DNA from: a virus
Length of the DNA stretch: 36,215 bases
Direction: 5' to 3' (one strand)
Virus record (IMG/VR): IMGVR_UViG_3300030389_002047
Span: 1-36,215 of that record
Under the pieces are notes generated by a model. The model worked only from the letters and a program-made list of their open reading frames with translations, made no database searches and was not told the origin of the DNA. Made by a program: the position numbers and the translations under genes. Below are positions 522 to 35,429 of the stretch, piece by piece; within the stretch, counting starts at the first letter, position 1, and each line of letters opens with the position of its first letter.

Positions 522-676
522 CCTCCGTATCTTTTAGATGGTCTGAGTCCCCTAGGTTTTCTAGGGGATTTTTTTTTGAATCCATCTGTAGCATAATACA
601 ACCTGACTTGTGCGTCTGTGAATATCCTACCACTCGGACTCTGATTTTTATTTTTTCCTATTTTTCTAAACGGCAT
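518..676 (-). CDS. Small basic phage protein, 52 aa
   Basis: This gene follows the giant ejection-protein gene. Its ATG overlaps that gene's TAA (TAATG, sharing base 676), a usual sign of translational coupling. The product starts MPFRKIGKNK, has a central PSGRIFTDAQVRLYYATDGF segment, and ends in a Lys/Arg/Pro-rich tail closing with RPSKRYGG. Small proteins with a PSGR.FT..QV.LYYAT-type core occur in Bacteroidota phages as far as I remember; no function is known to me. The very basic tail suggests binding to nucleic acid or to an acidic partner. Residues SPRKPRGL are encoded by the antisense of the plus-strand terminator hairpin. Its stop codon (518-520) overlaps the stop of the converging gene within TTAA. 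Confidence 0.75.
   Translation of the reverse strand: MPFRKIGKNKNQSPSGRIFTDAQVRLYYATDGFKKKSPRKPRGLRPSKRYGG
548..577 (+). terminator. Rho-independent terminator of the 136-aa gene
   Basis: The stem TCCCCTAG (548-555) pairs perfectly with CTAGGGGA (561-568) around a 5-base loop and is followed by nine T (569-577). The T run exists on the plus strand only, so it stops the plus-strand transcript 27 bases after its stop codon. The hairpin lies inside the minus-strand coding sequence at 518-676. Confidence 0.88.
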
Positions 677-3600
677 TACTGTAACCAATCAAATTCTTCT
701 GTTTCTTTTTTAGAATATCTTTTTCTTTTTCTCTTTGTTCGTCTTGAAGAAGATGTCTTTGTGTTTGCTCTTCGTTTCAATTCTTCGTAACCATAAATTT
801 GATATTCCGAATAGTTAAACATTCTCAAGAAAGCCTCTCCGGGATTCTTCACATCACCAAATAATATTTTAGAATAATTCTCATAGAACTTAGCAAAGTT
901 GTTAGCAGGTACACCAAACAGTTCAGCCAACTTGACCATTGTTCTGAATTGATATTTCTCTGCAGTTGCCTCTGACCCTGCATTCTTATATTTTGTGTAG
1001 TCATCATTGACAGCTTTAAGTTGGTCAAGGATAGGTATGTTTCGTATTGGTTTTGCCCAAGGCTTGTTGGACATCGAATCAAATATATAAGTTAAAAGGT
1101 CACCGACTATAAAAGCTGAATTGAAAGTTCCCAATAGAGCTGACCTAATAAAATCAAAATCATCTTCGTCTCTCCACTCTCGTGCTATACCGGGGAAACC
1201 TGATGCAATGAATTGGAATGTCAAAGGTAACAACAAGTGATAAGTAAACACACCTCTTAAGTTCTGACCTAGCGAACCCTTACCTGCGTTTGGGTCTAGC
1301 TTAATCATCTTAGTGTACAACCCTACCATGTTTTGTATATCTCTCCTTAGCAAAGCTCTAGGCGAGGATGTAAACAACTGAAACAATCTCATATATCTAT
1401 TGTTTTGATATGCGTCTCTGTTGAGTGCATCAAAATCTTGCTGAGTAGTTATTATTTGTTTGGTTACTTTGTCTAATGCAAAATCTATTGCCTGTTGGTC
1501 TGTTGAATTTGGATTGTTTTTTTTGAATTGGTCTTTGAAATAACTGTATGCAGGTATGCTACCCATAACACCACCTTTATCACCTGATTTAACAAACCAC
1601 ATTAATGCATCAACCACTCGAGCAAGGTCAATCTTTTTACGACTTAACTTTTCGTTTATATTTTTTGGGACCTTTACATTAAGCTTGTCAAAGAAACTTT
1701 TACTTGGTCTTTGATTATACCCCTCAAACATCCTAGCGAAATCCCTTCTTGTATATCTTTGCTGTAAGGTAGGCGAGTTCTTGTACATTTCTTGCCATGT
1801 TTTATTCCAAGTACCTATTCCATTTCTTAACTCTTTTGTACCATAAGTAAACCAATTTCTATAACCTATATAATCCGCAAAAGCCATTGAAGATGAGAAC
1901 TGTTTCAGCATAATTGTTGGGTTGGCAGCCAAAGCTTTGTATATATATAACCCCGAAGTGATGTCAAAGAATTTATCAAACATTTTATCTACCGGTCCTG
2001 TAGACCTTTTACCATAAGGATTGGCTACCATTTGTAGATTTTGATAAATCATATTATGTATATCAAACCCAACCTTGTAATTCATTGCTTGTTTTATGAG
2101 AGGTTCATTGAGTAATTTATTAACATCTCTAAGTGGTATAGCATAAGCTCTGAAGTTTTCCATGTCTTGAATATATCTTCTCAACTGTTGGTTTCCATCA
2201 ACAAACTGTATAGGTGATGCATTGTTTATTCTTGCTATAGTAGATTGACCACCAATATTTGTTTGATATTTTTTGTTATTCATATCTTTTAAATCCAAGA
2301 TACCTACTTCTTCTTGGTCTAAAGTTCTTTGAAGTCTTCCTGCATACTTACTGTTCCATGGCATATTAGTTCTGTATACATCTTTATACACAGAATTATA
2401 TCTTGCGTATACACTAGGGAAAAACTCTTGCACCTGCCACTCTGCCCATCTTCTTATTCTTGGGTCTAATTTTGCATCTATTTGTTTTAGCAATTCATTC
2501 AAATCAAATTGACTGTCTAGTAGTAACTCATTGTTTTGAAGACCCGGGTGGTTAGCAGTATCTAATCCTTGATTATATATATAATACATTTGATTTTGTG
2601 TGAGTTGAATAGTCATATCATTCAATTCGTTTGTAAGCTCCTGAAACTCTATGGATTTTTTGTCAAGGGTTTCTAGTTTTTGTTTTATTTCTGCAGCCCT
2701 TTTTGGATTGGCTTCGAAATTAATTGTGACTTTACTGAAGTCATCTAATGTTAATTCGTAATTTCTACCAAAATACTCTTCCATTTTGGAACGAATTAAA
2801 TCTTGCATATAAACCACGCCTTTATCTCTTTCAAGCCTAGCTCTATATATAGGGTCGTATATTAACTTGTTTGCCTCTGTACTATATATATCAGTCGACT
2901 CCCTAGATATTTGTTCTGTGAGAACATCTATACCAAAGTTTCCGGCAAAAAAGCTTTTGAATGCAGCAGCTAATTTATTGGCGTACTTAGTTAAAGTTTT
3001 GTTGTCAATCCTTTTTAATATGTTGTTTAGTTTTCTAAGTGCATCATTGGTTTCTTTCTTGTCGTTAAAATCATTGTCAAGCCCTGAAACATCTTTATAT
3101 AATTTTCTTTTTTGCTCATTGTACCTCAACCTTCTTTGTTCCATATCAGCCTTGAAATCTTGACGACCCTGAACAAAAAGTTCTTTTAACAATGTAGACG
3201 CCTCATCTAGTGTGGAAGATTTGTGTGGGTTTGTGTCTTCCATCAACCTTGCTTCGTTATACAGTATGGCTATTTGAAGAGTTTCAAGATTGATTTCATC
3301 ATCTACTGAATATACATTCTTGTTTTTAATCTTGTCAAACTCTTTTCTAAGTTCTGTAATTTTATTGTTAATGGTAGTTACATCTTCTTCATTTGTTGGG
3401 TTGGTGGTTATGATATTGTTCTTTAATTTATTTATAGCATCCTGCAAGTTGGGTAAAAACTTTCCTTTAAATCTTGCACTAGCCTTTACTTTAAGTTTGG
3501 TTCCAAGTAGTTTGTCGAAAACACTAAATGAATCTCTAGTGTTTTGCTTATTAATCATTTGGATTACATTATCTAAAACCATTCTGATATCATCAGGTTG

Positions 3601-6600
3601 TTTTACAGTATAGAAATCTTTATAGAACTTAGCGTCTGCTATATTGTTTAAAAACTTTTTTACTTGTGGAGAAGTCCACTTGGTCTTTGGCATATTCTTG
3701 AATATAAAACTTTTCATCTGCCTTTGTAAGTCACTCAATTGTCTAGCCCCAAGTTTTTGTTGCCTTGTTCTTTCCTTCATGTTCTTGATATCATTGGCTA
3801 TCTCAAGATTCTTTTGAATAGCCAACTGCTTATCTAGGGCAACAAGTAAATCATCTTGTAGTGTTTTATTGAGTTCTTGAAACTCAGGTTGTTGTTTTAA
3901 AATCTCCTGAGCTTTGGCTCTTACTTCCGACAGAGTGCTATTTTTTTTCTTAGCAAACTTCTTAACCTGAGTCATAACTCTACCGAACACCTGCATTCCA
4001 ACACTCATACCACCTTTTATGTTCCCAAACATTTGAGGCACACTACTAAAAAGGTCCGTGTCTATTTTCATTGCCTCGTTTATTTCGGCAACTTTGAAAC
4101 CTTGCTTTCTTAAATATAGCCTTATTGCAGCATCAGATATCTCCAACTGTCGTGCTGTCTCAATTATGTCAGCCATGGTAGATTTCTTAGCATCTTTCTT
4201 AGCCATCATTTGAAATGTATTCTCTAAATTATTAGCTTCAAATCCTGCAAACACAGGTTCTCCTGAAAGCAAATCAACAACAACCCCTTCCACAAACTCA
4301 TCCATTGTCATGTTGGTAATATCTTTCTTGGTTTTTTTAGACAAACCCATCAAGGATTTTATGTAATTGAATAATTTTTTTAGCCAAACCTTAAAGCCTT
4401 TTTCTTTAGACGCTAGTATAAAAGCCTCTCCTTTATCTCCTATAGCAGTAGCTAATGCTTCTTCTTTTATGAAGTTGTCTATCATTTCCTGACTTCTACC
4501 TTCCTTCTGCATTTCTTTTATAATTCTTTGGTAAGATGTATCATTTTTAATATCATCTATATACTGACTATCTGACACAAGCTCCAATCCTTTTTTATAT
4601 AAATCAGGTCGTGCAGTCTTAGCTGTGTTTAGCCATATGTGACCAAACTCGTGTATGGCAGCATTCATACTTTGATGTTTTGGATTTAAAAATACCTTTC
4701 CATCTATGACAGCACCATATACAGTTCCTCCATCTGTTATTTGTGATTTTATTACAAGTCCTTTTGCATAAGCGTTCTCTAACATAGCATCAAAAGCTTC
4801 ACGACTAGACACCACTTCTACTCCGGGGAAAGCTCTGCTCAAAAGATTTATAAGTTGCTGATACTTGGTTTGTGTAGGAGGAATTAATTCAAAAGATTCG
4901 TTAGCGGTCGTCTGTAGACTTCTTAGAATATCAGACTTTGCTTGTTTAAATGAGGTTCTATCAAAAACCTTATCGGCTAACTTACTAACAAGAGGTTCTG
5001 CTACAGTATATACCGGTACGGTTTCTTCTAAAATACCCACAACTTTACCTCTAATAAAGAACGGATAGTTGGGATGAGGCGTGAGACCTAATTCTTTTTG
5101 TTCTTTTCTATCTATTATGGCTTGGTCTCTTGTGGCTTCAGTTATTTTATTTCCTTGTTTGTCTTGTATCTCAACAACCACAGTCATAGCACCTTTGGGT
5201 AAATTATCTGTAAAGCGTTCTCTAATTTCAGCCCTTATATCTTCTATATAAAGTCCTGCATTATCCATTTTGATTTTTAGAGGTATATTCATAGACTGCT
5301 CCCTACTTGCTACTATCTGTCTAATTGCTTTCCCTCTAAATTCTGTGTTTGTTACATCTTCAGAAAAGAACTTTTTTAAATCTTCGAGTGTATTGACTTT
5401 ATCAAGGTCTTCTAAAAACTCTGCTCTTGCTTTTATATGATAATCTGACCCTTTTAATTTTGGTATAATACTTGCTACCACATTTTTTAACCTATCTTTT
5501 ATATCTACAATAATCTCTTCATTATTAATCCTAGGATTTTCAATTATTTTATCTATAGTTATGTCTGTCAAAACTACATTAGAGTCCATGGATGATTTAT
5601 CCATATTAAACACTATAGATATATCTGAGTCTATCGCACCATTTACTATTTTTGCAACCGCACTTTTATTTATAGATGCCCAAGCTACTTTGCCAAAATT
5701 TTTATCTGTTAAACCAAAAAACGGACCGCCATAGAGTTTGTTTTTTTCATCCACTTTTAATTGGTCTGCCATTAAAAAGTTTGCTTTCTTACCAATAATA
5801 TCATCTAAAGGAATCCTAGGAACTTTATTGGCTAGTTTTGTGTTCTCTGTTATTTCTATAGGAATTATAGGAACATCAGGAGCAGGTTCAGTTAATTCAA
5901 ATGCTTCATCTTGAACATTTTCCATCGCCTCCATTTGAGCCATAGCCTCCTCTTTTAATTGTGTTATTCTTTGATTACGAGTTTTAGGAGATGTTATTGA
6001 AAACTGTGGATTATTCTTTTGAAACAACTCTTCAAGTGCGTTAATTTCATTTTCTATTTCAGGATTAATATTTTCCTCAGTAGTTGTAGACACTTCTGCC
6101 AAATCCTCAGGGGTTATAACGATAGTTTGTTCAACTGATGGGGCAAACCCACCCTTTGCATCAGATTTCTTTTTAATTTTTAACTTGAATATAGTGTTAC
6201 CTGCTGCCGCAGCCTTTGTTGTTTTAGGCACAACTTTAACTTCTTTAACCTCAATATCAAAGTCCTCTAAATTTTCTTTTTTTATAATAACATCTTTGAA
6301 GTTTTTAAATCTTGTTTCTTCTATAGGAACAGAGGCTCCTTTTCCTTTCCTTTTCTTTTTTGTTTTTTTGCTTTCCTTTGTAAAATCAAAAGTAACTTTT
6401 TTTACACCCGTGGTCTGTTCATCATCTGTCTTGGTTTCATCAGTTATATTTTCTTCGTAAGTAAAATTGCTAGTCTTATTAGACTGAGTAAATGACAAAG
6501 GTGTAACCCCAACTTCTAGATTCTCAGCAGTCTCAGTAGTCACAGTAGATGCTTCTTTTGGTTTTCCATCTACTTCACTATCTCTTTTTACATTAAAGAT

Positions 6601-9600
6601 TTCATTTACCTCTAATGCAGTTTCATTGTCATTACCAATGAATATTTCAGTATTGTTTATTTCTTCAGGAGTCAAGGCATTTATTTTTTCCATGAACTTA
6701 TCCTTGGTTTCAAAACTTTCTTTACCAATCAGATATGTTGGTGCTGTTTTCTTGGTAGGTTCCACTTTGATACTACCATCTGCAATACCTGCTATACGAG
6801 CATCAATCTCTTTTATTTTTGTCTTGAATGCTTTTTTTCTTACCGGTGTGTTAGTTAACTTGCTTTTTTCATCAAGCAAACGCATTATTTCTAGCGTTGC
6901 TGTTTTTCTATTTTTAATTTTCTCACCTTCAAGAAGTCCTTTTGCTGTCTGTTTGTTACCAAGTTGGCGTTCTATTTTCTGTCCAAGCTCAGGTGATATT
7001 TTTTTCAACTTTACCATCCTCTTGGTCCAATCATATATTCTAGTATCAGAAGCTCCATAAGATTCTTCAAGCATACCTTTAGGTGTGGACAAGTCTTTTG
7101 ATAACTTTGAAGTTCTGTTGTTATAAGTATTAAAAAAACCGCTAACTGCTGCTGCAGGTGCATTACTAAACAATCCACCATAACCTTCAGCAAATATTTC
7201 TTTACCATCTAGGTCTTGACCGGCAACTACCTGAGCTAAAAATTCACCCGTGGCTTCCATGGCAGGGTCAAAAGTTACCCTTTCCAACAGGAATGCTCCG
7301 GCTTTTGAAGCCCCACTTGCTGTTCTTCCAACTTTAATTACATTACCTGCTAACCCAAAAGACAAAGCATTCACTATACCAATTGGAATACCTCTTTTGT
7401 GTCCCAATGCTGCACCTTCGCCCCATACATCTTCATTGACTAATGCTTTTGTTACATCATCAGGATTAGTCATATCATAACCATAAGCTTCAGCCGTATC
7501 AATGATAGCATTTGTAAACTCCATAGCGTGTCCAATCATATAACCTCCGGTAGCAAGTCCGGTTTTGAAACCTACTATTCCACCACCTATAGCTCCGACT
7601 CCGGTTCCTATTCCCGGTACAGCTACTGTACCTCCCGTTGCTCCTATTGTGGCTCCTGTTGTTGTACCAATACCAACATTTGTTGCTAATAGTTCAAACC
7701 CATACGGTAGCATTTGACTTAAACTATAAGCCATGAACTGCATACCTAAATCAAGAGGGTTTTCTTTAAGGACTTGCAAGGTTTCTCTACCAAATAAACC
7801 TCCTCTTGCTTTTTGCCACCTATTTAATACACGAGCTTGACCTCCTCTTTTAGATTCAGCAAGGGCTTTGGAAATCTCTATAGCCATTGCCTTACTGTCT
7901 TTGTTTTCTAAGCCAAGTCCCATTTGTAGAATTATGTCAGCAGCTTCTCCACGAGCCCAACCTTTATCCCATTCGTTAGTAACTGCAGACCAACCTTCTT
8001 CCCATTCTCTGTATACACTTTTATCAAACTTGTTGTTATACCACATATTAGCAATCTCAAATTGTTGAGCAGCCATTCTTCTATCTGCGGCTGCTGCTTC
8101 ATAAGATAATTGCAAAGCTCTAGCGTCATTTATTTCTTCGGGTATCTGTAAATCTAGGTCCGCTAAGTTTTCAACTCTTACGCCATATTTATTTAATGAT
8201 GCAACTTGTAGTGCGTCTTGAGCCTCAATCATTTTTTGATTTTCTCTAGCAGCTCTTATTGATTTGTCACGCCAATATTTTTGGTAATTTAAATCTATGT
8301 CCTCTCTGACTTTTACTAAATCTTCATCTTGAACTACCACACTCAACTCATCAGCCTTTTTTTCAAGTGCTTCAATAATATCTTTTGTAACACGAACTTG
8401 TTTGCCGTCAACAAAGTAGTTGCTATCTTTTAGTAGCTCAATGCTTTCTTCGTCTAACTTATCTTCAGCATCCTCTATATCCAAACCTGACTCTATGCCT
8501 AGCTCTTCAAATGTCTCCAAAGTATTCATGATTTTTTCGTACTCATCAAACTTTTGTTTGTAAGTCTTATAGTCTATACCATCAGCATTTTTGTCAAAAT
8601 ATTCTCTACTATATAATTCGAAAGTGTTTTCGTCTTTCCAACTACCATTTACAAAGTCTCTCGCTTCTTTAGGATTGTCGAATGAATATACTTCGTTTCT
8701 TTTTTTAGCTTCTTCTAAAGCTTCATCACCTGAAAGTTTTAACCAATATGCTCTTCTAGTTCCGTAATTAGAATCAGGGCTTTTAGGAAACAGAGTTGGA
8801 TATACTATAGTCTTGCCACCTTCTTGTTTGGTCTCCCAACCATATGCCTCAACTCTACCATTGTCTAACAAACCTCCTTTACGCATATTCATTACCTTCA
8901 ATGCGGTGTATTGTTCGTCTGTATATTCTGTTTCTTCTTTTTTAGGAGTGGCATTTTCTTTCATAAAGTTCTTAGCCGCTTCTAGTTCATCGGTATCAAA
9001 TTGCAAAGAGTTTCCATTCTCTGCCATCACAGTTATTTCATCATCAAAAAACCCCTCGTCCACCTTAAATATAAAATTATAATCTTCAAACTGATTATTA
9101 AGAAAACTCACACCTGACTCTATAGATTCATCAAATATTCTTTCATTGGTATTTAGTAAAGCACTTTGAAAATCAGGTGATTGAACAACTTCTATATTGG
9201 CTTGTTCAGTTGTGTATTTTTCTTCAAGCTCTCTTTCTCTTGCTTTTTGCTCTGCTAGAAATCTTTCTTCAGCATCTCTAAATTGAGCTTGTTGAAATTC
9301 TTCAGGAGTAGGAAAATCATCAGGTAATCCCGGTGGTTGGTACCCGGGAATCTGAGGATATAATTTCATCTCAGGAGCAAGGTTGACACGAGTATTGTCT
9401 TGAGCAACCTCCACTATCTCCGGTTGTAGTTGTGGGTTTTGTATTGTATTATCTACTACAGGAACCTCCTGTGGTATAGTTACACCTAATAACTTGGCAA
9501 ATTCTTCTTGGTTTTTTTGATACCCTTCATCTACGGCAAACTGAAAACTTAAATCAAAAGCCTCTTTGTTGGAGTTAAGAAGCTCAAGAAATTCTTCACG

Positions 9601-9663
9601 AGACTTTCTATATCCCTGACTGACTGCGTGATTATATAATAGTGAAAACGCTTCTTCATTCAT
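676..9663 (-). CDS. Giant ejection/polyvalent virion protein with HEFGH metallopeptidase motif, 2995 aa
   Basis: This single 9-kb frame fills a quarter of the window. Layout: residues 3-61 hold two copies of a 30-residue motif (AV..GY....EEF..LL). About 120-600 is charged and largely helical, including a segment near 250-345 (YPTLFPKSP ... GSWKD). About 640-730 is Gly/Ala-rich and membrane-like. About 1000-1250 is Lys/Glu-rich and low-complexity. HEFGH is at 1671-1675 with EEALA at 1734-1738 as likely third zinc ligand. A long helical region follows, then a C-terminal domain with GLYIYKALAANP and two hydrophobic stretches, and a basic tail. This is the design of phage polyvalent or cargo proteins carried in the head and ejected with the genome. 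Position after the tail genes and beside two smaller internal-protein candidates agrees. The protease could mature virion proteins, cut host cell envelope, or act inside the host; the sequence does not say which. No frameshift is visible. Confidence 0.8.
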   Translation of the reverse strand: MNEEAFSLLYNHAVSQGYRKSREEFLELLNSNKEAFDLSFQFAVDEGYQKNQEEFAKLLGVTIPQEVPVVDNTIQNPQLQPEIVEVAQDNTRVNLAPEMKLYPQIPGYQPPGLPDDFPTPEEFQQAQFRDAEERFLAEQKARERELEEKYTTEQANIEVVQSPDFQSALLNTNERIFDESIESGVSFLNNQFEDYNFIFKVDEGFFDDEITVMAENGNSLQFDTDELEAAKNFMKENATPKKEETEYTDEQYTALKVMNMRKGGLLDNGRVEAYGWETKQEGGKTIVYPTLFPKSPDSNYGTRRAYWLKLSGDEALEEAKKRNEVYSFDNPKEARDFVNGSWKDENTFELYSREYFDKNADGIDYKTYKQKFDEYEKIMNTLETFEELGIESGLDIEDAEDKLDEESIELLKDSNYFVDGKQVRVTKDIIEALEKKADELSVVVQDEDLVKVREDIDLNYQKYWRDKSIRAARENQKMIEAQDALQVASLNKYGVRVENLADLDLQIPEEINDARALQLSYEAAAADRRMAAQQFEIANMWYNNKFDKSVYREWEEGWSAVTNEWDKGWARGEAADIILQMGLGLENKDSKAMAIEISKALAESKRGGQARVLNRWQKARGGLFGRETLQVLKENPLDLGMQFMAYSLSQMLPYGFELLATNVGIGTTTGATIGATGGTVAVPGIGTGVGAIGGGIVGFKTGLATGGYMIGHAMEFTNAIIDTAEAYGYDMTNPDDVTKALVNEDVWGEGAALGHKRGIPIGIVNALSFGLAGNVIKVGRTASGASKAGAFLLERVTFDPAMEATGEFLAQVVAGQDLDGKEIFAEGYGGLFSNAPAAAVSGFFNTYNNRTSKLSKDLSTPKGMLEESYGASDTRIYDWTKRMVKLKKISPELGQKIERQLGNKQTAKGLLEGEKIKNRKTATLEIMRLLDEKSKLTNTPVRKKAFKTKIKEIDARIAGIADGSIKVEPTKKTAPTYLIGKESFETKDKFMEKINALTPEEINNTEIFIGNDNETALEVNEIFNVKRDSEVDGKPKEASTVTTETAENLEVGVTPLSFTQSNKTSNFTYEENITDETKTDDEQTTGVKKVTFDFTKESKKTKKKRKGKGASVPIEETRFKNFKDVIIKKENLEDFDIEVKEVKVVPKTTKAAAAGNTIFKLKIKKKSDAKGGFAPSVEQTIVITPEDLAEVSTTTEENINPEIENEINALEELFQKNNPQFSITSPKTRNQRITQLKEEAMAQMEAMENVQDEAFELTEPAPDVPIIPIEITENTKLANKVPRIPLDDIIGKKANFLMADQLKVDEKNKLYGGPFFGLTDKNFGKVAWASINKSAVAKIVNGAIDSDISIVFNMDKSSMDSNVVLTDITIDKIIENPRINNEEIIVDIKDRLKNVVASIIPKLKGSDYHIKARAEFLEDLDKVNTLEDLKKFFSEDVTNTEFRGKAIRQIVASREQSMNIPLKIKMDNAGLYIEDIRAEIRERFTDNLPKGAMTVVVEIQDKQGNKITEATRDQAIIDRKEQKELGLTPHPNYPFFIRGKVVGILEETVPVYTVAEPLVSKLADKVFDRTSFKQAKSDILRSLQTTANESFELIPPTQTKYQQLINLLSRAFPGVEVVSSREAFDAMLENAYAKGLVIKSQITDGGTVYGAVIDGKVFLNPKHQSMNAAIHEFGHIWLNTAKTARPDLYKKGLELVSDSQYIDDIKNDTSYQRIIKEMQKEGRSQEMIDNFIKEEALATAIGDKGEAFILASKEKGFKVWLKKLFNYIKSLMGLSKKTKKDITNMTMDEFVEGVVVDLLSGEPVFAGFEANNLENTFQMMAKKDAKKSTMADIIETARQLEISDAAIRLYLRKQGFKVAEINEAMKIDTDLFSSVPQMFGNIKGGMSVGMQVFGRVMTQVKKFAKKKNSTLSEVRAKAQEILKQQPEFQELNKTLQDDLLVALDKQLAIQKNLEIANDIKNMKERTRQQKLGARQLSDLQRQMKSFIFKNMPKTKWTSPQVKKFLNNIADAKFYKDFYTVKQPDDIRMVLDNVIQMINKQNTRDSFSVFDKLLGTKLKVKASARFKGKFLPNLQDAINKLKNNIITTNPTNEEDVTTINNKITELRKEFDKIKNKNVYSVDDEINLETLQIAILYNEARLMEDTNPHKSSTLDEASTLLKELFVQGRQDFKADMEQRRLRYNEQKRKLYKDVSGLDNDFNDKKETNDALRKLNNILKRIDNKTLTKYANKLAAAFKSFFAGNFGIDVLTEQISRESTDIYSTEANKLIYDPIYRARLERDKGVVYMQDLIRSKMEEYFGRNYELTLDDFSKVTINFEANPKRAAEIKQKLETLDKKSIEFQELTNELNDMTIQLTQNQMYYIYNQGLDTANHPGLQNNELLLDSQFDLNELLKQIDAKLDPRIRRWAEWQVQEFFPSVYARYNSVYKDVYRTNMPWNSKYAGRLQRTLDQEEVGILDLKDMNNKKYQTNIGGQSTIARINNASPIQFVDGNQQLRRYIQDMENFRAYAIPLRDVNKLLNEPLIKQAMNYKVGFDIHNMIYQNLQMVANPYGKRSTGPVDKMFDKFFDITSGLYIYKALAANPTIMLKQFSSSMAFADYIGYRNWFTYGTKELRNGIGTWNKTWQEMYKNSPTLQQRYTRRDFARMFEGYNQRPSKSFFDKLNVKVPKNINEKLSRKKIDLARVVDALMWFVKSGDKGGVMGSIPAYSYFKDQFKKNNPNSTDQQAIDFALDKVTKQIITTQQDFDALNRDAYQNNRYMRLFQLFTSSPRALLRRDIQNMVGLYTKMIKLDPNAGKGSLGQNLRGVFTYHLLLPLTFQFIASGFPGIAREWRDEDDFDFIRSALLGTFNSAFIVGDLLTYIFDSMSNKPWAKPIRNIPILDQLKAVNDDYTKYKNAGSEATAEKYQFRTMVKLAELFGVPANNFAKFYENYSKILFGDVKNPGEAFLRMFNYSEYQIYGYEELKRRANTKTSSSRRTKRKRKRYSKKETEEFDWLQ
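9481..9657 (-). repeat. Two 30-residue repeats at the N-terminus of the giant protein
   Basis: The first copy (residues 3-32) contains YNHAVSQGYRKSREEFLELL and the second (33-61) contains FQFAVDEGYQKNQEEFAKLL. Shared positions are AV, GY, EEF and LL at the same spacing. This is a helical hairpin-like duplication at the very start of the protein, perhaps a docking or packaging signal for the head; that role is inference. Confidence 0.7.
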
Positions 9664-9676
9664 CCTTTTTCTTTAT

Positions 9677-11545
9677 TTAAAAACCGCTAAAACTTCCATC
9701 AGGGTTATTGGTTGTTATGAAATCATCATTAAACTCTTGTCCGAAGAATATAGTCTCTTTTCTTCCCATACCACTAACTTGGTTTTTTTGGTCTGTGATA
9801 TCTTGTGAGGCAAATACACTCTCACTTTCATCGCTTAATAAATCAAGAGCTGCCGCTATAGAATCAGCATCATCACTTTCATATGTTGCAATGATTTTGC
9901 CATCAGGGTCTTTGACTTCCCCATCATCTACTGTATAGCCGGGCAATCTTAGTTCTACTAATAAATTAGTAAGCCTTCCATCTACATTTCCACTATCGTT
10001 AGCCATTTCAGCAGGGTCGTATTGTGCTGTCGCAGTATCCACAAATGCTCTTCTATAAGTTTGAGCAGGGGACTCACCATCCTCCCTGATTTTTTGTGTT
10101 CTTCCTATTCCTGTTTCGTTGAATGAAATTCTTTCTTTATATTGTGCATCAGTTTCATTTTTAAGTCTTGGTATATTAAGTCCTTGGTTTAATACATCTC
10201 CCACATTGTCAGTAATTTTAACTTTATTAATAAGTTCCGTTACAAACTCTCTCATGTCTTTCAACTGATTATCTGCTGTTTTAAAATTAACAGTTTCTGT
10301 GCTTCCGTCAGCAAACTGTACTCTTACACCCTTGGAAGTTCTATCTATATAGTTTATAATCAATGAGGGGTCTTTAGTGTCTTTATTAAGGTCTTTGACA
10401 AACCCAAGAGTCGACTCAATACCTGCATTATCATCGTAATATAATTTTGCCAACTCTGTGTATGTTTTTCGTTGAGCATCTCTGTTCACTTTACTTTCAG
10501 GTTCGAAACCTCTTCTACTTGTTGAAGTAGTTATTTCTTTATTTATTGAAGCATCTATTTGTCCTTTGATGTGTTCTTTTGCTGCCTCTTTTTGTTTTTC
10601 AGTTAAAACAGGTACTCCTCTAGCAGATTTTGATGTATCAATAAATATTATATTATCATCCTTCTTGGCTGCAGGGTCTTTACTAAAAGTATATGGTTGA
10701 CCGTTGGGAGCCATCAAGCCTTCGTCAGTTAAAATAGATACAACATCCCATTCATTCACCATAAATCTTGCTGTGGTTTCATCTCTCCATTGTTGGTATA
10801 ATTTTATTTCTTCTTCATCACCATACTTGCCGCCTTGGGACCTAGTTTTTATTAGGTACTCTAAATCTCCCTCGCCACCATACTGCATTTTTAGTGAATC
10901 TATTATACCAAGTCTTGACTTGTCAGTTTCGATAGCTTTTTGTAAATCAAAATTATCATATTGAGAATTTAGTGCGGCAGTCATTTGGTTGACAGTCATA
11001 AATTGATTTGGGTCTCCATCCATTTTTCCATCTTCCCAATGACCAATAGAAACCATACCATTGTTCTGATTAATTAATGCTTTTGTGTTTTGGATATTAT
11101 AAAGACCTCCTATTTGGTCCATCTCCCATCCTTCATATGCTTGAGATTCACCATTTTTTTGCCTTTCCATTTTAAGCTTATATACTTCTTCGTATTTTTT
11201 AGCCATACCATAAATCTTGTCGGTTGAATCATTTAGATTGGCTGCTATTAAAGAGTATTGTCTAGGTTGTAAAAGACCGGCTTTCAAAGCACGATTGGCT
11301 GCCAACATAGCAGCAGAACCATCAGCCGCAAATTGAGCAGCAAACTCATTTGCTTCAGTATAAGTACCTGAAGGGGCATTAGCAAGTCGTTCTTGCATTT
11401 CACGAGCTGCTTTGTCAAGCTCGTCTTTTTTTGCTTGTCTTCCTGCAATTTCTGCTTGTAGAGTATCTGTAAAGACCGATGCGACTGCTGACCAATCTAT
11501 TTGACTATCTACCTGTCTGTCTACATATCCGTATCCTGTGCTCAT
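9677..11545 (-). CDS. Probable internal virion (ejection) protein, 622 aa
   Basis: The family is not recognised by name. The product is soluble, acidic and mostly helical in its first half (start MSTGYGYVDRQVDSQIDWSA, then Ala/Lys/Glu-rich helices to about residue 125), with mixed alpha/beta character later and an acidic C-terminal third ending in NPDGSFSGF. I see no enzyme motif, signal peptide or membrane segment. The ATG lies one base after the stop of the 339-residue gene, and the giant gene follows 13 bases later. A long helical protein in this position is what ejection/cargo proteins look like in crAss-like and T7-like phages. A tail-lumen or scaffold role is an alternative. The only support for the role is position and composition. 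Confidence 0.6.
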   Translation of the reverse strand: MSTGYGYVDRQVDSQIDWSAVASVFTDTLQAEIAGRQAKKDELDKAAREMQERLANAPSGTYTEANEFAAQFAADGSAAMLAANRALKAGLLQPRQYSLIAANLNDSTDKIYGMAKKYEEVYKLKMERQKNGESQAYEGWEMDQIGGLYNIQNTKALINQNNGMVSIGHWEDGKMDGDPNQFMTVNQMTAALNSQYDNFDLQKAIETDKSRLGIIDSLKMQYGGEGDLEYLIKTRSQGGKYGDEEEIKLYQQWRDETTARFMVNEWDVVSILTDEGLMAPNGQPYTFSKDPAAKKDDNIIFIDTSKSARGVPVLTEKQKEAAKEHIKGQIDASINKEITTSTSRRGFEPESKVNRDAQRKTYTELAKLYYDDNAGIESTLGFVKDLNKDTKDPSLIINYIDRTSKGVRVQFADGSTETVNFKTADNQLKDMREFVTELINKVKITDNVGDVLNQGLNIPRLKNETDAQYKERISFNETGIGRTQKIREDGESPAQTYRRAFVDTATAQYDPAEMANDSGNVDGRLTNLLVELRLPGYTVDDGEVKDPDGKIIATYESDDADSIAAALDLLSDESESVFASQDITDQKNQVSGMGRKETIFFGQEFNDDFITTNNPDGSFSGF

Positions 11546-11546
11546 A

Positions 11547-12566
11547 TTACGATAAACCTAAAACTTTTTTTATTTCTTCATCAGTCATAAGAACTTTTTC
11601 CTGTTTACCATCTTTGGTAATTGTTTTCATAAATCTCTCATCCCCTGAAGCTTTTGCTTGTTGAATTTTTAATTGCGTTGAAGTTTGTGCAGGATTATTT
11701 GGGTCTCCAACTCCTAAGTTTTGCTGAAGATTATATGTTTGTAAGAAATTAGTACCCATTAAATTTTGTCTTTGTTCATTACTTAAATTTCTACCTAATT
11801 TTCTAAAGGTACGAGTATCTAGGTTTGAAACTAAATCTTGGTCAGTAAGGTCTATACTCTTTTTTACTTTGTCTCCAAATAAACCGGGTAGAAATTTTCC
11901 CTCTCTTATAGTAAAGTCAACAGTACCACTATCTTTTAAGGCTTGTGTTTGGTCTGCTGTATAGACTGTATCTCCAATAGCCATTTGTTGAGCATCTAAA
12001 TTTTGTGAATAAAGAGGTACTATCTGAGCTGCTGATGTTAAAGCATTAGCTGCTCCTTGAAATCCCTCCATCATTGCCTTATTAGCTAACGCTTCTTGAT
12101 TTGCGGCTTGAGCTTGAAATCCTTGAACCTCTCCTAAGTCTAGTTGAACATTGAGGTCTCTTAGTCTAGCATCTTCTTCGGCAACCAACTTATCTAGATT
12201 TGACATCTCTTTACCCATTTGAGTTCTTATCTGTCCTTGTGCGGCATCTTGAGCAACTTCTAATCTTCCGGCAGTAGCAGCGACACCTCTTTGGTCTCCT
12301 TCTCTTGCGGCTTCTAATGCTGTTGCTCCCTGTTGAAGTGCTGCTTCACGAGCTAATTCATATGGTTCCTTTTGTATTGCTAATTCATCTAGATAATTAA
12401 TCTCTAGTCTTTTTCTTGCCAAACGCATAGCTTCTGCAGCTTTACTCTCAGCATCTCTTGCAGCTCTTTTGGCTTTAGCTCCTTGAGCAAAAGATATACC
12501 TGCTCCGGTAGCACCAATTCCTGCACTTACTATTGCCGCTATTCCGGCTGCTCCTAATCCTGACAT
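11547..12566 (-). CDS. Internal virion protein, membrane-active N-terminus plus coiled coil, 339 aa
   Basis: The N-terminus (residues about 4-30, GLGAAGIAAIVSAGIGATGA...) is a Gly/Ala-rich hydrophobic segment with the look of a membrane-inserting helix. It is followed by a long Ala/Arg/Glu/Gln-rich coiled coil (about 30-180) and a more globular C-terminal part rich in Asn and Gln. This arrangement recalls T7 gp14-type internal proteins, which form the outer-membrane part of the DNA ejection channel. The likeness is in architecture, not in specific residues. Its start lies 13 bases inside the end of the cupin gene, and the 622-residue gene follows after one base, so the three are co-translated. 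A tail-needle protein is a possible alternative. Confidence 0.6.
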   Translation of the reverse strand: MSGLGAAGIAAIVSAGIGATGAGISFAQGAKAKRAARDAESKAAEAMRLARKRLEINYLDELAIQKEPYELAREAALQQGATALEAAREGDQRGVAATAGRLEVAQDAAQGQIRTQMGKEMSNLDKLVAEEDARLRDLNVQLDLGEVQGFQAQAANQEALANKAMMEGFQGAANALTSAAQIVPLYSQNLDAQQMAIGDTVYTADQTQALKDSGTVDFTIREGKFLPGLFGDKVKKSIDLTDQDLVSNLDTRTFRKLGRNLSNEQRQNLMGTNFLQTYNLQQNLGVGDPNNPAQTSTQLKIQQAKASGDERFMKTITKDGKQEKVLMTDEEIKKVLGLS

Positions 12567-31887: not shown

Positions 31888-34353
31888 TTACGGGGTAATA
31901 TTTATTCTTACTACTCCGGCAGTATGATATAATCCTCCTAGTCCGATTCCTGCTGCTGCTGCATCTGCATCATTTGGGTAGTCTTGAGCAACCAATTGGT
32001 CCATGTAAATAACTCCAAATAAAGGACCCGATGTGTTGACAATGTTTAAGGCATTTCTTCTTGCAGTTAAATTCTGCCCAACACCTACTTGTAAACATGG
32101 ATTACCTTGAGTGTTAACTTTTGAGTCATCATTGTTTTTTCCTACAGTAAAAGAGTTTGTTGAACTTGTTACAGTGATACCGTTACCAAAAGCAGCATTG
32201 TTGGCACCGGAGCTAATATCAATGTTATTACCTATAGCTACACTATTGTTAGCTGCACCTGATGAACCTATATCATTATTGTTACCTATATTCAAGCTTC
32301 TTGCTGTGCTACTTTGTGTACGGCAACTATTACCACTCACAATATTATTACTTCCTGAAACAGTGTGTTGAGTACCGGCTAAAACAACATTACTATTGCC
32401 GGTAACACTTCCGGATGCATTTAATATGGTATTTTTATCTCCATCAATTGTGGCACCCATTTGTCCAAATACCACATTACTAGCACCGCTTAATGTAACA
32501 TCATCAGCGTTAAACAAGAAGTTATAATCAGACCCGGATGAAATACTTGACTGTTGAGCTCCATTGAAGCTAGTAATCCCAAACAGGAAGTTGTGATTAT
32601 TAAACTCAAATGAAGTTGGATTTGAAAATTCACTTGCAAAAATAAAGTTACGACCTGAATCTGTCATCTCTATATTTCTACATCCTAGCACATAATTATT
32701 TCTAGTGTTGTTACTGTCTGTGGCAGCTAGAGTATTAGTAAGAGTAATAGTAGAACCATTAACAACAACATTACCTGTAATAGGAGTATCATTGGCTGAT
32801 ACCATTGTAATTGTTGATGAGCCAAGGATTACATTGTTGCTTGAGTTCGCACCGGCTATAGCACTGCCACTTGTTCCAACAACGAAGTTGTCATTTCCTA
32901 CGAGGGGCTGACCACCTATTGCAAAACTAGAAGCATTTAACAATGTATTGTTCTGCCCTTGAATTATTGTTGGGTCTGCCGGTGAGGAACCGAAGCTGTT
33001 TAAAACAAGATTGTTATTTGAGTTGTTACTACCATTAGCGTCAATTTTTATCGCCTGACTGTTTATAAGAGTGTTTTTATTAGCAAACTCTGCAGCACCT
33101 TCTAATATTTTAATAGCATAAGAGCCCAATACAACATTCTCCGTGGTTGGGTAAGCAGTTCCACCGCTTACATTTTGTCCTATTTGAACCTGACTTGGGT
33201 CACTTGGTTGTCCATCGGAATACATATTTATGGCAATATTGTTATTACCAAAAACCTTATTATTAGAACCTAGTATTATATTATTTCTAGCAATAGTAGA
33301 ATCAGTTGCACCTGCACCCGCAACTCCAAGGCTGTTTGTTTTATTACCTGTACTACCTGCAGATATAACTATGTTACCAATATCATGAGAGCCGCCAAAA
33401 AGTTTTCCTATTATTACATTACCACTTATAATGGAATTACTACCGGGGTCGTTGTTAGCCCCTGCGTTTCTACCTATGTAAATATTTTCACTTACAGTAA
33501 AAGGAGTATCATTTATAGTAACGGCTGTGTCTAAATTGATTGCAGCATTGTCACCAATAATCGTGTTCTTTTCAAAGGAGGTTAATCTTTTGTCGCCCCC
33601 TAGTCCTGCATTTCTAAATGCTCTCCTTCCTATAACTGTATTTCCCTCTATGGTTGTGGCGTTTTCATCTACTGAAAAATCAGCAAATGCTTGATGACCC
33701 ACATAAACACCTCCGACATGACCAACAAAATTAGGGTTTATTAGAGAGGTTGGACTTGGATTACCTGCAGAAAACCCAACACCTATAGATGTATTATTTC
33801 CGATATATTGTACTGTGTCATCGCCTAAAGCATTTTTAGAAATAGCAACATTATTAAATCCTTGAACATTAAATGCAAGTGAGCCTCCACCAATGGCAAT
33901 ATTATTAGTTCCGGTTGTAGTGGCATTCAAGGCATTATGACCAATAGCTATATTTACTCCATCCTCATCTTGACCAAAAAATCCTGCTGTAAAACTACTT
34001 AATGCTCCCTGACCCACTCCTACATTCTTGCCAAAAGTAAATGCGTCACTAACTCCTGCACCATCACCAATGTAAACTGATTGACCTGTCCCGGTTATTC
34101 CAATTAATCCATTAACATTAATTTTAGTTGGTGCGGTTGTGGAATCTTGTGTTATTACTGAATCCACATAATCAACTCCATTGGATATAGGAACAAATAA
34201 ATCTGTAACTACACTTGGAATTGGTGGAACTAAACTTATGATATCACCTATGGTATAGTTCTTAGTTATATTATTATCATTAACATCCGTACCAATAACT
34301 TTATCATTAAGTTGAGGTGTGGAATCAATTACATAGGTAGATATTTTAGCCAT
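31888..34353 (-). CDS. Tail spike/fibre with YadA-like beta-roll repeats, 821 aa
   Basis: The N-terminus (KISTYVIDSTPQLNDKVIGT, then NITKNYTIGDI) is a short virion-attachment module seen on Bacteroidota phage fibres. From about residue 100 to 770 the sequence is a long series of short repeats (GTNNIAIG, GFNNVAIS, GNNTSIGVG, NNIILGSNNKVFG, GNNNIAIN, SNNVILG, GNSNVVLAG). They fit the left-handed beta-roll of YadA-type adhesin heads, in which NxxxG-type turns stack. Such heads are trimeric and bind surface ligands. The C-terminus (DADAAAAAGIGLGGLYHTAG) is a common phage-fibre end module. It is therefore the likely receptor-binding protein. It is unusual in lying upstream of the terminase rather than with the other tail genes. 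There is no pectate-lyase-type enzyme motif. Confidence 0.82.
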   Translation of the reverse strand: MAKISTYVIDSTPQLNDKVIGTDVNDNNITKNYTIGDIISLVPPIPSVVTDLFVPISNGVDYVDSVITQDSTTAPTKINVNGLIGITGTGQSVYIGDGAGVSDAFTFGKNVGVGQGALSSFTAGFFGQDEDGVNIAIGHNALNATTTGTNNIAIGGGSLAFNVQGFNNVAISKNALGDDTVQYIGNNTSIGVGFSAGNPSPTSLINPNFVGHVGGVYVGHQAFADFSVDENATTIEGNTVIGRRAFRNAGLGGDKRLTSFEKNTIIGDNAAINLDTAVTINDTPFTVSENIYIGRNAGANNDPGSNSIISGNVIIGKLFGGSHDIGNIVISAGSTGNKTNSLGVAGAGATDSTIARNNIILGSNNKVFGNNNIAINMYSDGQPSDPSQVQIGQNVSGGTAYPTTENVVLGSYAIKILEGAAEFANKNTLINSQAIKIDANGSNNSNNNLVLNSFGSSPADPTIIQGQNNTLLNASSFAIGGQPLVGNDNFVVGTSGSAIAGANSSNNVILGSSTITMVSANDTPITGNVVVNGSTITLTNTLAATDSNNTRNNYVLGCRNIEMTDSGRNFIFASEFSNPTSFEFNNHNFLFGITSFNGAQQSSISSGSDYNFLFNADDVTLSGASNVVFGQMGATIDGDKNTILNASGSVTGNSNVVLAGTQHTVSGSNNIVSGNSCRTQSSTARSLNIGNNNDIGSSGAANNSVAIGNNIDISSGANNAAFGNGITVTSSTNSFTVGKNNDDSKVNTQGNPCLQVGVGQNLTARRNALNIVNTSGPLFGVIYMDQLVAQDYPNDADAAAAGIGLGGLYHTAGVVRINITP

Positions 34354-34607: not shown

Positions 34608-34644
34608 TACAAAGATACTATTTTTTATTTTTTATCTTTTCAAA
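34608..34644 (-). promoter_or_regulatory. Bacteroidota-type promoter before the spike and packaging genes
   Basis: On the minus strand TTTG (34644-34641), a 23-base spacer, then TATCTTTG (34617-34610) within TATCTTTGTA. About 21 bases separate the box from the ATG at 34588. This is the best promoter on the minus strand, and its -33 part lies in the end of the holin gene. It probably drives the spike, GroES-like and packaging genes. Confidence 0.6.
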
Positions 34645-35019
34645 TGACCTTCCGCCAAAATATGCGGATATTACAGTTATTAAAACAAGCTGAAGTAAAT
34701 CCACCCAATTGGCTTTTACTTCAAAATGTATAACTCCTGCATCTATAAAAACTAGCAGTACAGTTGATACAACCAAAAATATAAGAACCATAGGTCTTAC
34801 ATTCTTTGAAAGCCAAGAGTCAGAAGTCATATCTGTTCTCCATCTTTCTGTAATATTCTTTTCCATTTCAGATTCATGACTCATAAAAAGCTCTGTCATT
34901 TCTTTTTCAAACTGAGCTTTTTCTTCTTTGGTGTGTACAAACTTATCAACTATGTTTGACAAACCTTCTGCTACATTAGTTCCGGCTCCACCAAATATTT
35001 TACTTAATAACTGTTTCAT
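34618..35019 (-). CDS. Holin, GTA/3TM-holin-like, 133 aa
   Basis: Residues 1-60 are a charged, amphipathic helix region (KEEKAQFEKEMTELFMSHES). They are followed by SWLSKNVRPM and two hydrophobic helices at about 76-96 and 105-124 with a short acidic/basic turn between them, and a basic C-terminus (RSFEKIKNKK). The D..SW...N.RP lead into the first membrane helix is the mark of the holin family that includes gene-transfer-agent holins (GTA_holin_3TM). The start overlaps the amidase stop by ATGA. The pair forms the lysis cassette: the holin opens the inner membrane and the amidase reaches the peptidoglycan. Confidence 0.8.
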   Translation of the reverse strand: MKQLLSKIFGGAGTNVAEGLSNIVDKFVHTKEEKAQFEKEMTELFMSHESEMEKNITERWRTDMTSDSWLSKNVRPMVLIFLVVSTVLLVFIDAGVIHFEVKANWVDLLQLVLITVISAYFGGRSFEKIKNKK

Positions 35020-35429
35020 AACATACTGTAATTAGATTTCACATCAAAGCTTGGACACGCTTTACTAGAAAACTCATTGTGTCCATGAATGGTTGCATCG
35101 GGAAAACATTTTTTTAAAAACAACAACAAATTCAGCATACTTTCTTTTTGCTCGATTGTTCTTGTGTCCTTAGGTGTTTTACCATCTTTCTCAACTCCAC
35201 CGATATAACATACACCTATGCTATTTTTATTCATGTTCTTCACATGAGCTCCAATCTCGTCAACCATTCTTCCAAACTGAATGGTTCCATTAATTAGTAT
35301 TACAAAATGATATCCACAACCTCGCCATCCACGAGCCTTGTGCCATCGGTCTATTACTTCAACATCAACAGAATCATCTCCTTCTCGTGTTGCTGAGCAA
35401 TGTAAAATAATTTTATCTATATCTCTCAT
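35016..35429 (-). CDS. N-acetylmuramoyl-L-alanine amidase (T7 lysozyme-like), 137 aa
   Basis: This endolysin cuts the bond between muramic acid and L-alanine in peptidoglycan. Amidase_2 signs are all present. IILHCSAT gives zinc ligand His10, GYHFVILING gives catalytic Tyr40, and TIHGHNEFSSKACPSFDV gives His117, Lys123 and zinc ligand Cys125, as in T7 lysozyme. GAHVKNMNKNSIGVCYIGG is the usual substrate-side loop. The length is that of a single catalytic domain, with no cell-wall-binding part, as is usual for phages of Gram-negative hosts. It has no signal peptide, so it needs the holin. Its ATG overlaps the stop of the small basic gene upstream and its stop overlaps the holin start. Confidence 0.92.
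   Translation of the reverse strand: MRDIDKIILHCSATREGDDSVDVEVIDRWHKARGWRGCGYHFVILINGTIQFGRMVDEIGAHVKNMNKNSIGVCYIGGVEKDGKTPKDTRTIEQKESMLNLLLFLKKCFPDATIHGHNEFSSKACPSFDVKSNYSML

Follow-up and report, generated by a model that had tools for sequence, protein, structure and literature searches.

What does a phage gain from a single protein of 2995 amino acids (aa) that joins unrelated domains, among them a candidate zinc protease, in one chain? The question is raised by an open reading frame (ORF) at positions 676-9663 of IMG/VR virus record IMGVR_UViG_3300030389_002047, which lies on the minus strand, begins with ATG and faces a stop-rich plus strand. The whole record, linear, 36,215 bases long and probably a fragment, was analyzed and is hereafter termed the window; the features of the ORF, hereafter the giant, are all on its minus strand. 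A preliminary description made from the sequence had proposed a probable ejected protein with a metallopeptidase site. Searches with the whole giant against Pfam, PHROG and PDB sequences gave nothing significant. With the integration of gene order, conservation, structure prediction and comparison with relatives, our results point to an ejected polyvalent protein, encoded by a Bacteroidota podovirus, with a protease that would act after delivery, a reading that we consider fairly probable; the giants constitute a new family of phage delivery proteins, within a kind already known.

The core of the chain comprises three unrelated domains: a beta-rich domain, here designated HPNYP (residues 1258-1595; positions 4879-5892), a zincin domain (residues 1596-1806; 4246-4878) and a conserved all-helical C-terminal region of ~1190 aa (CTD; residues 1807-2995; 676-4245). 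The HEFGH and EEALA motifs reported in the preliminary description are found in the 2995-aa ORF at residues 1671-1675 (4639-4653) and 1734-1738, respectively. In 38 aligned zincin sequences (residue number = alignment position + 1257), H1671, E1672, F1673, G1674, H1675, W1677, G1692, E1735 and G1745 are invariant, Glu1735 (4459-4461) being the probable third zinc ligand. The first relatives were fetched by the pattern HEFGH[IVL]W, and HEFGH is thereby guaranteed in that set. At 22-77% identity, the sequences show little or no variation in the zinc-binding and catalytic residues, as well as in a GxKG motif located behind the third ligand, and the ratio of nonsynonymous to synonymous substitution rates (dN/dS) of the domain is 0.13. 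An AlphaFold2 model of residues 1258-1832 (predicted local distance difference test score, pLDDT, 87.5; predicted template modelling score, pTM, 0.82) places HEFGH within one helix (model residues 414-418, helix 409-427) and Glu1735 in a later long helix (model residue 478, helix 468-497), with a beta hairpin ahead of the active-site helix, as in zincins. A gluzincin zinc site in the giant is well supported by these data, in agreement with the metallopeptidase proposed at the outset, and catalysis is predicted.

Re-alignment of residues 1597-1807 to PDB chains ranked M34 proteases at the top (lethal factor, Z 6.4; PPEP-1, Z 5.7), followed by the gluzincins ERAP1, aminopeptidase N and LTA4 hydrolase at Z 3-4. 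The VIA Z values to lethal factor and PPEP-1, 5.7-6.6 over ~137-157 residues, were the highest of the list, yet below Z 8, and Foldseek comparison of the HPNYP-zincin and CTD models with PDB gave no match at E <0.001. Because the Z values are moderate and Foldseek alone gave no match, the modelled M34-like fold of the zincin is only probable. At the sequence level, the Pfam ATLF family matched the zincin at E 0.061, under the cut-off; no Pfam model matched the HPNYP domain or the zincin above cut-off; a direct search with the M34 Pfam family found no match in the window's record; and PDB profile searches with the HPNYP-zincin, CTD, 622-aa and 339-aa families (the last two being the proteins encoded upstream of the giant) returned nothing meaningful. 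A fold of this kind might also be retained merely as an inactive scaffold of the giant, as may be considered from the C1 domain of the phage N4 protein gp50, which contains HExxH and for which protease activity is not reported; with the zinc and catalytic residues and GxKG so conserved at 22-77% identity, and with the alternative zincin type described below likewise retaining an HExxH and a Glu motif downstream of it, we regard an inactive fold as scarcely probable at all.

In order to counteract the bias introduced by the HEFGH pattern, a second search for relatives used the C-terminal region only, and yielded 64 CTD proteins; after duplicate removal, 58 relatives remained, each complete at its 5' end. 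HExxH is present in 55 of these 58: 13 carry the window-type zincin and 42 a second kind, in which TIAHE[VI]FHA precedes an EE..AEL motif and which is frequently located several hundred residues N-terminal to the CTD; the remaining three have none. Chance occurrence was rejected, as after residue shuffling only about 0.45 of the 64 proteins would be expected to contain HExxH. Therefore, the sequences indicate that the giants keep a protease of some kind, while its type and place vary. Loss of HExxH in close relatives, which had been set beforehand as evidence to the contrary, was not seen; it is lacking only in the distant cultured counterparts from phages phi38:1, phi13:2 and phi19:3.

This retention, despite varying type and position, is also what a general processing role predicts. 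Processing of polyvalent proteins by zincins has been proposed (PMC5512222), as has a role of this kind for phage P1 DdrB, and the zincin of the giant could accordingly cut the giant itself or other head proteins during assembly or within the head, the fragments being packed and ejected; the poorly conserved linker that directly precedes the HPNYP-zincin block (residues 881-1257; 5893-7023), with the highest dN/dS among the giant's regions (0.52), would suit such cleavage. However, N4 gp50, whose architecture is the closest parallel, is packed as an intact chain despite its HExxH domain, and the distant cultured counterparts assemble without any HExxH. A further argument comes from the near relative L001. 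Between the window and L001, the synonymous divergence (dS) of the HPNYP domain reaches 0.87 and that of the zincin 0.63, compared to 0.15-0.31 across most of the gene, and the dN/dS values are 0.22 and 0.13, respectively. From the raised dS inside the block and its low dN/dS, we conclude that the HPNYP-zincin block has been replaced as a unit, in either the window phage or L001, and is under purifying selection. No matching change is found elsewhere, whereas a protease tied to its own sites should resist such an exchange. We therefore hold self-processing to be a possible but rather unlikely explanation and, because the block is exchanged as a unit, slightly favor a host protein over the giant itself as the substrate. 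Its identity would reveal either the phage's first host target or the unpacking of a giant ejected chain.

The HPNYP domain itself, ~340 aa long, beta-rich and with a helical insertion, lies directly ahead of the zincin, and occupies the same place in most relatives. Its top structural matches were ASCH and YTH domains (Z 4.5-5.1), for which reason the predicted fold is tentatively considered PUA-like; weak matches to PUA_NSUN2 were also obtained in family members.

The delivery half of the proposal is based on gene context. The giant is the final gene of the window's structural block, in which other genes match PHROG families of terminase, portal, capsid and tail-type structural proteins; together with the synteny among relatives, this confirms the location after the tail genes noted initially. 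Directly upstream are encoded a protein of 622 aa (9677-11545, minus strand; phrog_35506) and another of 339 aa with an Ala/Gly-rich N-terminus (11547-12566, minus strand; phrog_13764, 'virion structural protein'). This 339-622-2995 aa cassette, beside the head and tail genes, is found in the same order in relatives, and its order and rough sizes match those of T7 gp14-gp15-gp16 (operon order in PMC8954989) and N4 gp52-gp51-gp50 (gp51, 644 aa; gp50, 3500 aa; PMC12633501). The 339-aa protein thus holds the position of T7 gp14 and N4 gp52, and the 622-aa protein that of T7 gp15 and N4 gp51, and may by analogy be tunnel-like. In Cellulophaga phage phi18:3, the products of the three corresponding genes, gp120, gp121 and gp123, are annotated as virion proteins by 'experimental MS/MS proteomics' (tandem mass spectrometry), and a profile match (E 5e-5) shows homology to the 339-aa protein for gp120, the only one of the three so shown. 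The agreement with the T7 and N4 cassettes and the proteomics annotation of the syntenic phi18:3_gp123 favor the ejected protein of the preliminary description.

Three known systems are instructive for comparison. The N4 virion RNA polymerase gp50 (Schitoviridae) is likewise a giant, last-ejected protein, with an N-terminal domain (NTD) that inserts in the membrane, a C1 domain with HExxH and then a ~1125-aa helical C2 (PMC12633501). Unlike gp50, with which it has no sequence match, the window's giant has no RNA polymerase: no Pfam RNA polymerase model matched it, and the slot between NTD and zincin, which in N4-like virion RNA polymerases holds a single-subunit polymerase domain of ~1100 aa, is filled by the ~380-aa linker and the ~340-aa beta-rich domain. 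The T7 gp14-gp15-gp16 ejectosome resembles the cassette in gene order and relative sizes (PMC8954989), together with a weak fold match to the PhiM1 pre-ejectosome; however, gp16 carries a transglycosylase where the giant has a protease, the giant is more than twice as long, and no sequence match was found. Phage-type polyvalent proteins (Iyer et al., 2017; PMC5512222) are multi-domain with zincins as hubs, and relatives of the giant carry PolyVal and LPD domains, whereas none of the Pfam PolyVal or LPD-series domains was detected in the window's giant.

Several observations weigh against delivery followed by proteolysis. phi18:3_gp123 is a positional counterpart only, linked through Tenacibaculum phage Gundel_1 by weak tblastn; it did not match the CTD and Gly-rich region profiles, and its close relatives in phi13:2 and phi19:3 lack HExxH. 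No sequence match was found between the cassette proteins and solved ejection proteins, T7 and N4 included. The top PDB match of the CTD, at Z 7.4 over 213 residues, is to the PhiM1 pre-ejectosome; helical proteins reach higher values by chance, and this likeness of the model is suggestive only. The near-universal zincin could equally fit the self-processing proposed for polyvalent proteins. Finally, the packaging, ejection, orientation and activity of the window's giant are inferred.

The slot occupied by the giant is also that in which T7 gp16 has a peptidoglycan hydrolase (PMC8954989), and a phage needs muralytic activity, for which no domain was recognized in the 622-aa and 339-aa proteins apart from a marginal endolysin-like match (E 0.025). 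The zincin might hence be an envelope-breaching enzyme that opens the path from within the periplasm, attacking envelope proteins or the cross-links of peptidoglycan, in the manner of the T7 gp16 transglycosylase. Nevertheless, its fold is nearest to M34 proteases of protein substrates and not to known peptidoglycan hydrolases, it lies C-terminal to the membrane-like region, which is the cytoplasmic side in the N4 model, and the window has a separate Amidase_2 gene at 35016-35429. We consider a periplasmic role very improbable.

Under the favored reading, a protease delivered to the cytoplasm, a short-tailed Bacteroidota phage would have three ejection proteins, of which the giant is the largest, with several copies packed in the head. 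The 339- and 622-aa proteins would form a channel first, and the giant would then exit through the portal and tail, threading domain by domain. Its Gly-rich region may anchor in the inner membrane, leaving, in line with the proposal for N4 gp50, the HPNYP-zincin and C-terminal parts in the cytoplasm. At that site, the zincin would work as a zinc protease during the first minutes of infection, and the HPNYP domain may position its substrate. This offers a testable function, that of a head-packed protease carrier, for many giants of marine and gut Bacteroidota podoviruses annotated as 'structural protein' or 'hypothetical'.

The remaining regions of the giant are in broad agreement with the architecture initially described. 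The N-terminal duplication was recovered at residues 1-62 (9478-9663) as a twin repeat of two ~30-aa GYxKSxxEFxxLL-type units (z about 15 compared to shuffled sequence), followed by a region of low conservation in distant relatives with no predicted fold (residues 63-540; 8044-9477). The Gly-rich membrane-like region (residues 541-880; 7024-8043) was likewise confirmed, with 21% Gly at residues 680-760 and Kyte-Doolittle 19-mers above 1.4 at 680-698 and 758-776; its profile matches 71 of 196 giant ORFs. Two descriptions required correction: the Lys-rich linker exists, with patches at residues 1102-1109 and 1164-1172, but precedes the protease instead of following it, and the C-terminal region is indeed predicted to be all-helical, with a single hydrophobic 19-mer above 1.4 (residues 2843-2861) in place of the several hydrophobic helices described.

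In most full-length viral members the CTD is 1150-1240 aa long. Its model in the window's giant (pLDDT 73.8; pTM 0.65) recurs among BFVD predicted phage proteins, several of them named polyvalent, with E-values down to 8e-62. Homology of the CTD to N4 C2 is not claimed, as Foldseek against N4 gp50 gave E 2.1 only. A direct family search of the records for LPD38 in the CTD gave no match, and neither did the controls.

Members of the family are typically 2300-4200 aa long. Near relatives of the window's giant include L001 and L002, at 90-94% identity, and L003, at 32%; among the relatives, Tenacibaculum phage Gundel_1 and Podoviridae sp. ctfjg026 are cultured or complete. The protease-region profile gave 142 matches, among which 80 viral loci are listed, plus 28 bacterial contigs; overall, the zincin is carried by about 100 contigs of viruses and 28 of bacterial genomes. 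The latter are mostly Bacteroidota, and some are long and chromosomal (Dyadobacter, Aquimarina), which suggests prophages. Relatives carry polyvalent Pfam domains elsewhere in the chain above cut-off, namely ART, kinase, InPase, PBECR1, MuF_C, LPD3, LPD23 and LPD38. One giant relative (L091, CP070801.1) is found in a contig labelled Candidatus Aenigmatarchaeota; since all close relatives are Bacteroidota phages, a phage contig was probably assigned by mistake to a metagenome-assembled genome.

The two cultured or complete relatives illustrate the diversity within the family. Gundel1_74 of Gundel_1 (Pachyviridae; 2482 aa, 'structural protein') shares the position at the end of the cassette, the HEFGH zincin and the CTD (profile E 5e-84), although at 24% identity and without most of the HPNYP domain; it also has an A10 tract and a -1 tail, described below, both lacking from the window's gene. 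The 3859-aa protein of ctfjg026 (MW202828; L005:19266-30842) has an orthologous HPNYP-zincin block and a twin repeat, but differs in its long inserts and in carrying two HEFGH domains (~1614 and ~2499) in different surroundings, the second of which is the ortholog of the window's zincin.

Comparison of the N-termini revealed a second trait of this family. A duplication at z>3 is present in 104 of 129 relatives, compared to 1-5% of control stretches, and the tandem ~30-aa units belong to several apparently unrelated sequence types; that these units may be SHOCT-like was considered. A role of the twin repeats as a general packaging tag was rejected, as they occur only at giant starts or in short ORFs just upstream. 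Behind the twin repeat, most relatives have Lys-Lys-Lys encoded as an unbroken A run: AAAAAAAAA is used in 80 of the 82 N-terminal instances, versus 2 of 342 KKK in other parts of these genes. The entire run is A10 in 95 of 106 (e.g., L004:16280-16289, nt 98-107 of the L008 giant, nt 169-178 of the L009 giant, L013, L133 and L143), and other ORFs of the same loci hold 6 comparable A runs in 724 kb. Past the tract, the -1 frame stays open for 24 codons on average, compared to 8.5 under synonymous-codon shuffling, by which a compositional cause was rejected. Of 79 representatives, 58 show a WFFG-like motif in the resulting tail (about RYGIxxGRWFFGxxR-stop), versus 0.5 expected (maximum 3 in 200 simulations). 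Tract and related -1 tails are also found in Gundel_1, phi38:1 and elemoA. The records of phi13:2, 18:3, 19:3 and 46:3 have A9, and the giant's frame breaks exactly at the tract; in these four Cellulophaga genomes, A9 may stem from an error in homopolymer sequencing.

The tract coincides with a site of apparent exchange. In several sets of relatives (L007 versus L010/L198/L199; L072/L082; L130/L133; L143/L148; L132/L135), the sequence downstream is nearly identical but the twin repeats differ, and the switch falls at or close to the A tract, consistent with an exchange of N-terminal tags at this point. Together, the tract and its -1 frame argue strongly that the giant family makes a second product by recoding, in what looks like programmed slippage. 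We are rather confident that the giant ejection-protein genes of Bacteroidota podoviruses are two-product genes, in which slippage of the polymerase or ribosome on A10 would yield the giant and, in addition, a short virion or assembly protein composed of the twin repeat and -1 tail, the tract serving as the joint for twin-repeat exchange; neither the window's gene nor L001 has the tract or the tail, which the window lineage would have lost. The overlapping A10/-1 frame is strongly selected and, no published description having been found in a limited literature search, constitutes an apparently unreported recoding in a virion gene, with the cultured phages Gundel_1 and phi38:1 carrying the tract.

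Other genes of the window deserve mention. On the opposite strand, a 136-aa ORF (111-521, plus) with no Pfam match displays a DxCxxR...TSHLTAIVNGKHMDSW pattern resembling papain-like cysteine peptidases. The Amidase_2 gene mentioned above forms, with a holin (GTA_holin_3TM), the gene pair of a lysis cassette at 34618-35429 (minus strand). Lastly, an 821-aa protein (31888-34353, minus strand) with many NxAIG-like repeats and a weak match to the Pfam ice-binding beta roll (E 0.0017) is possibly a fibre or head decoration.

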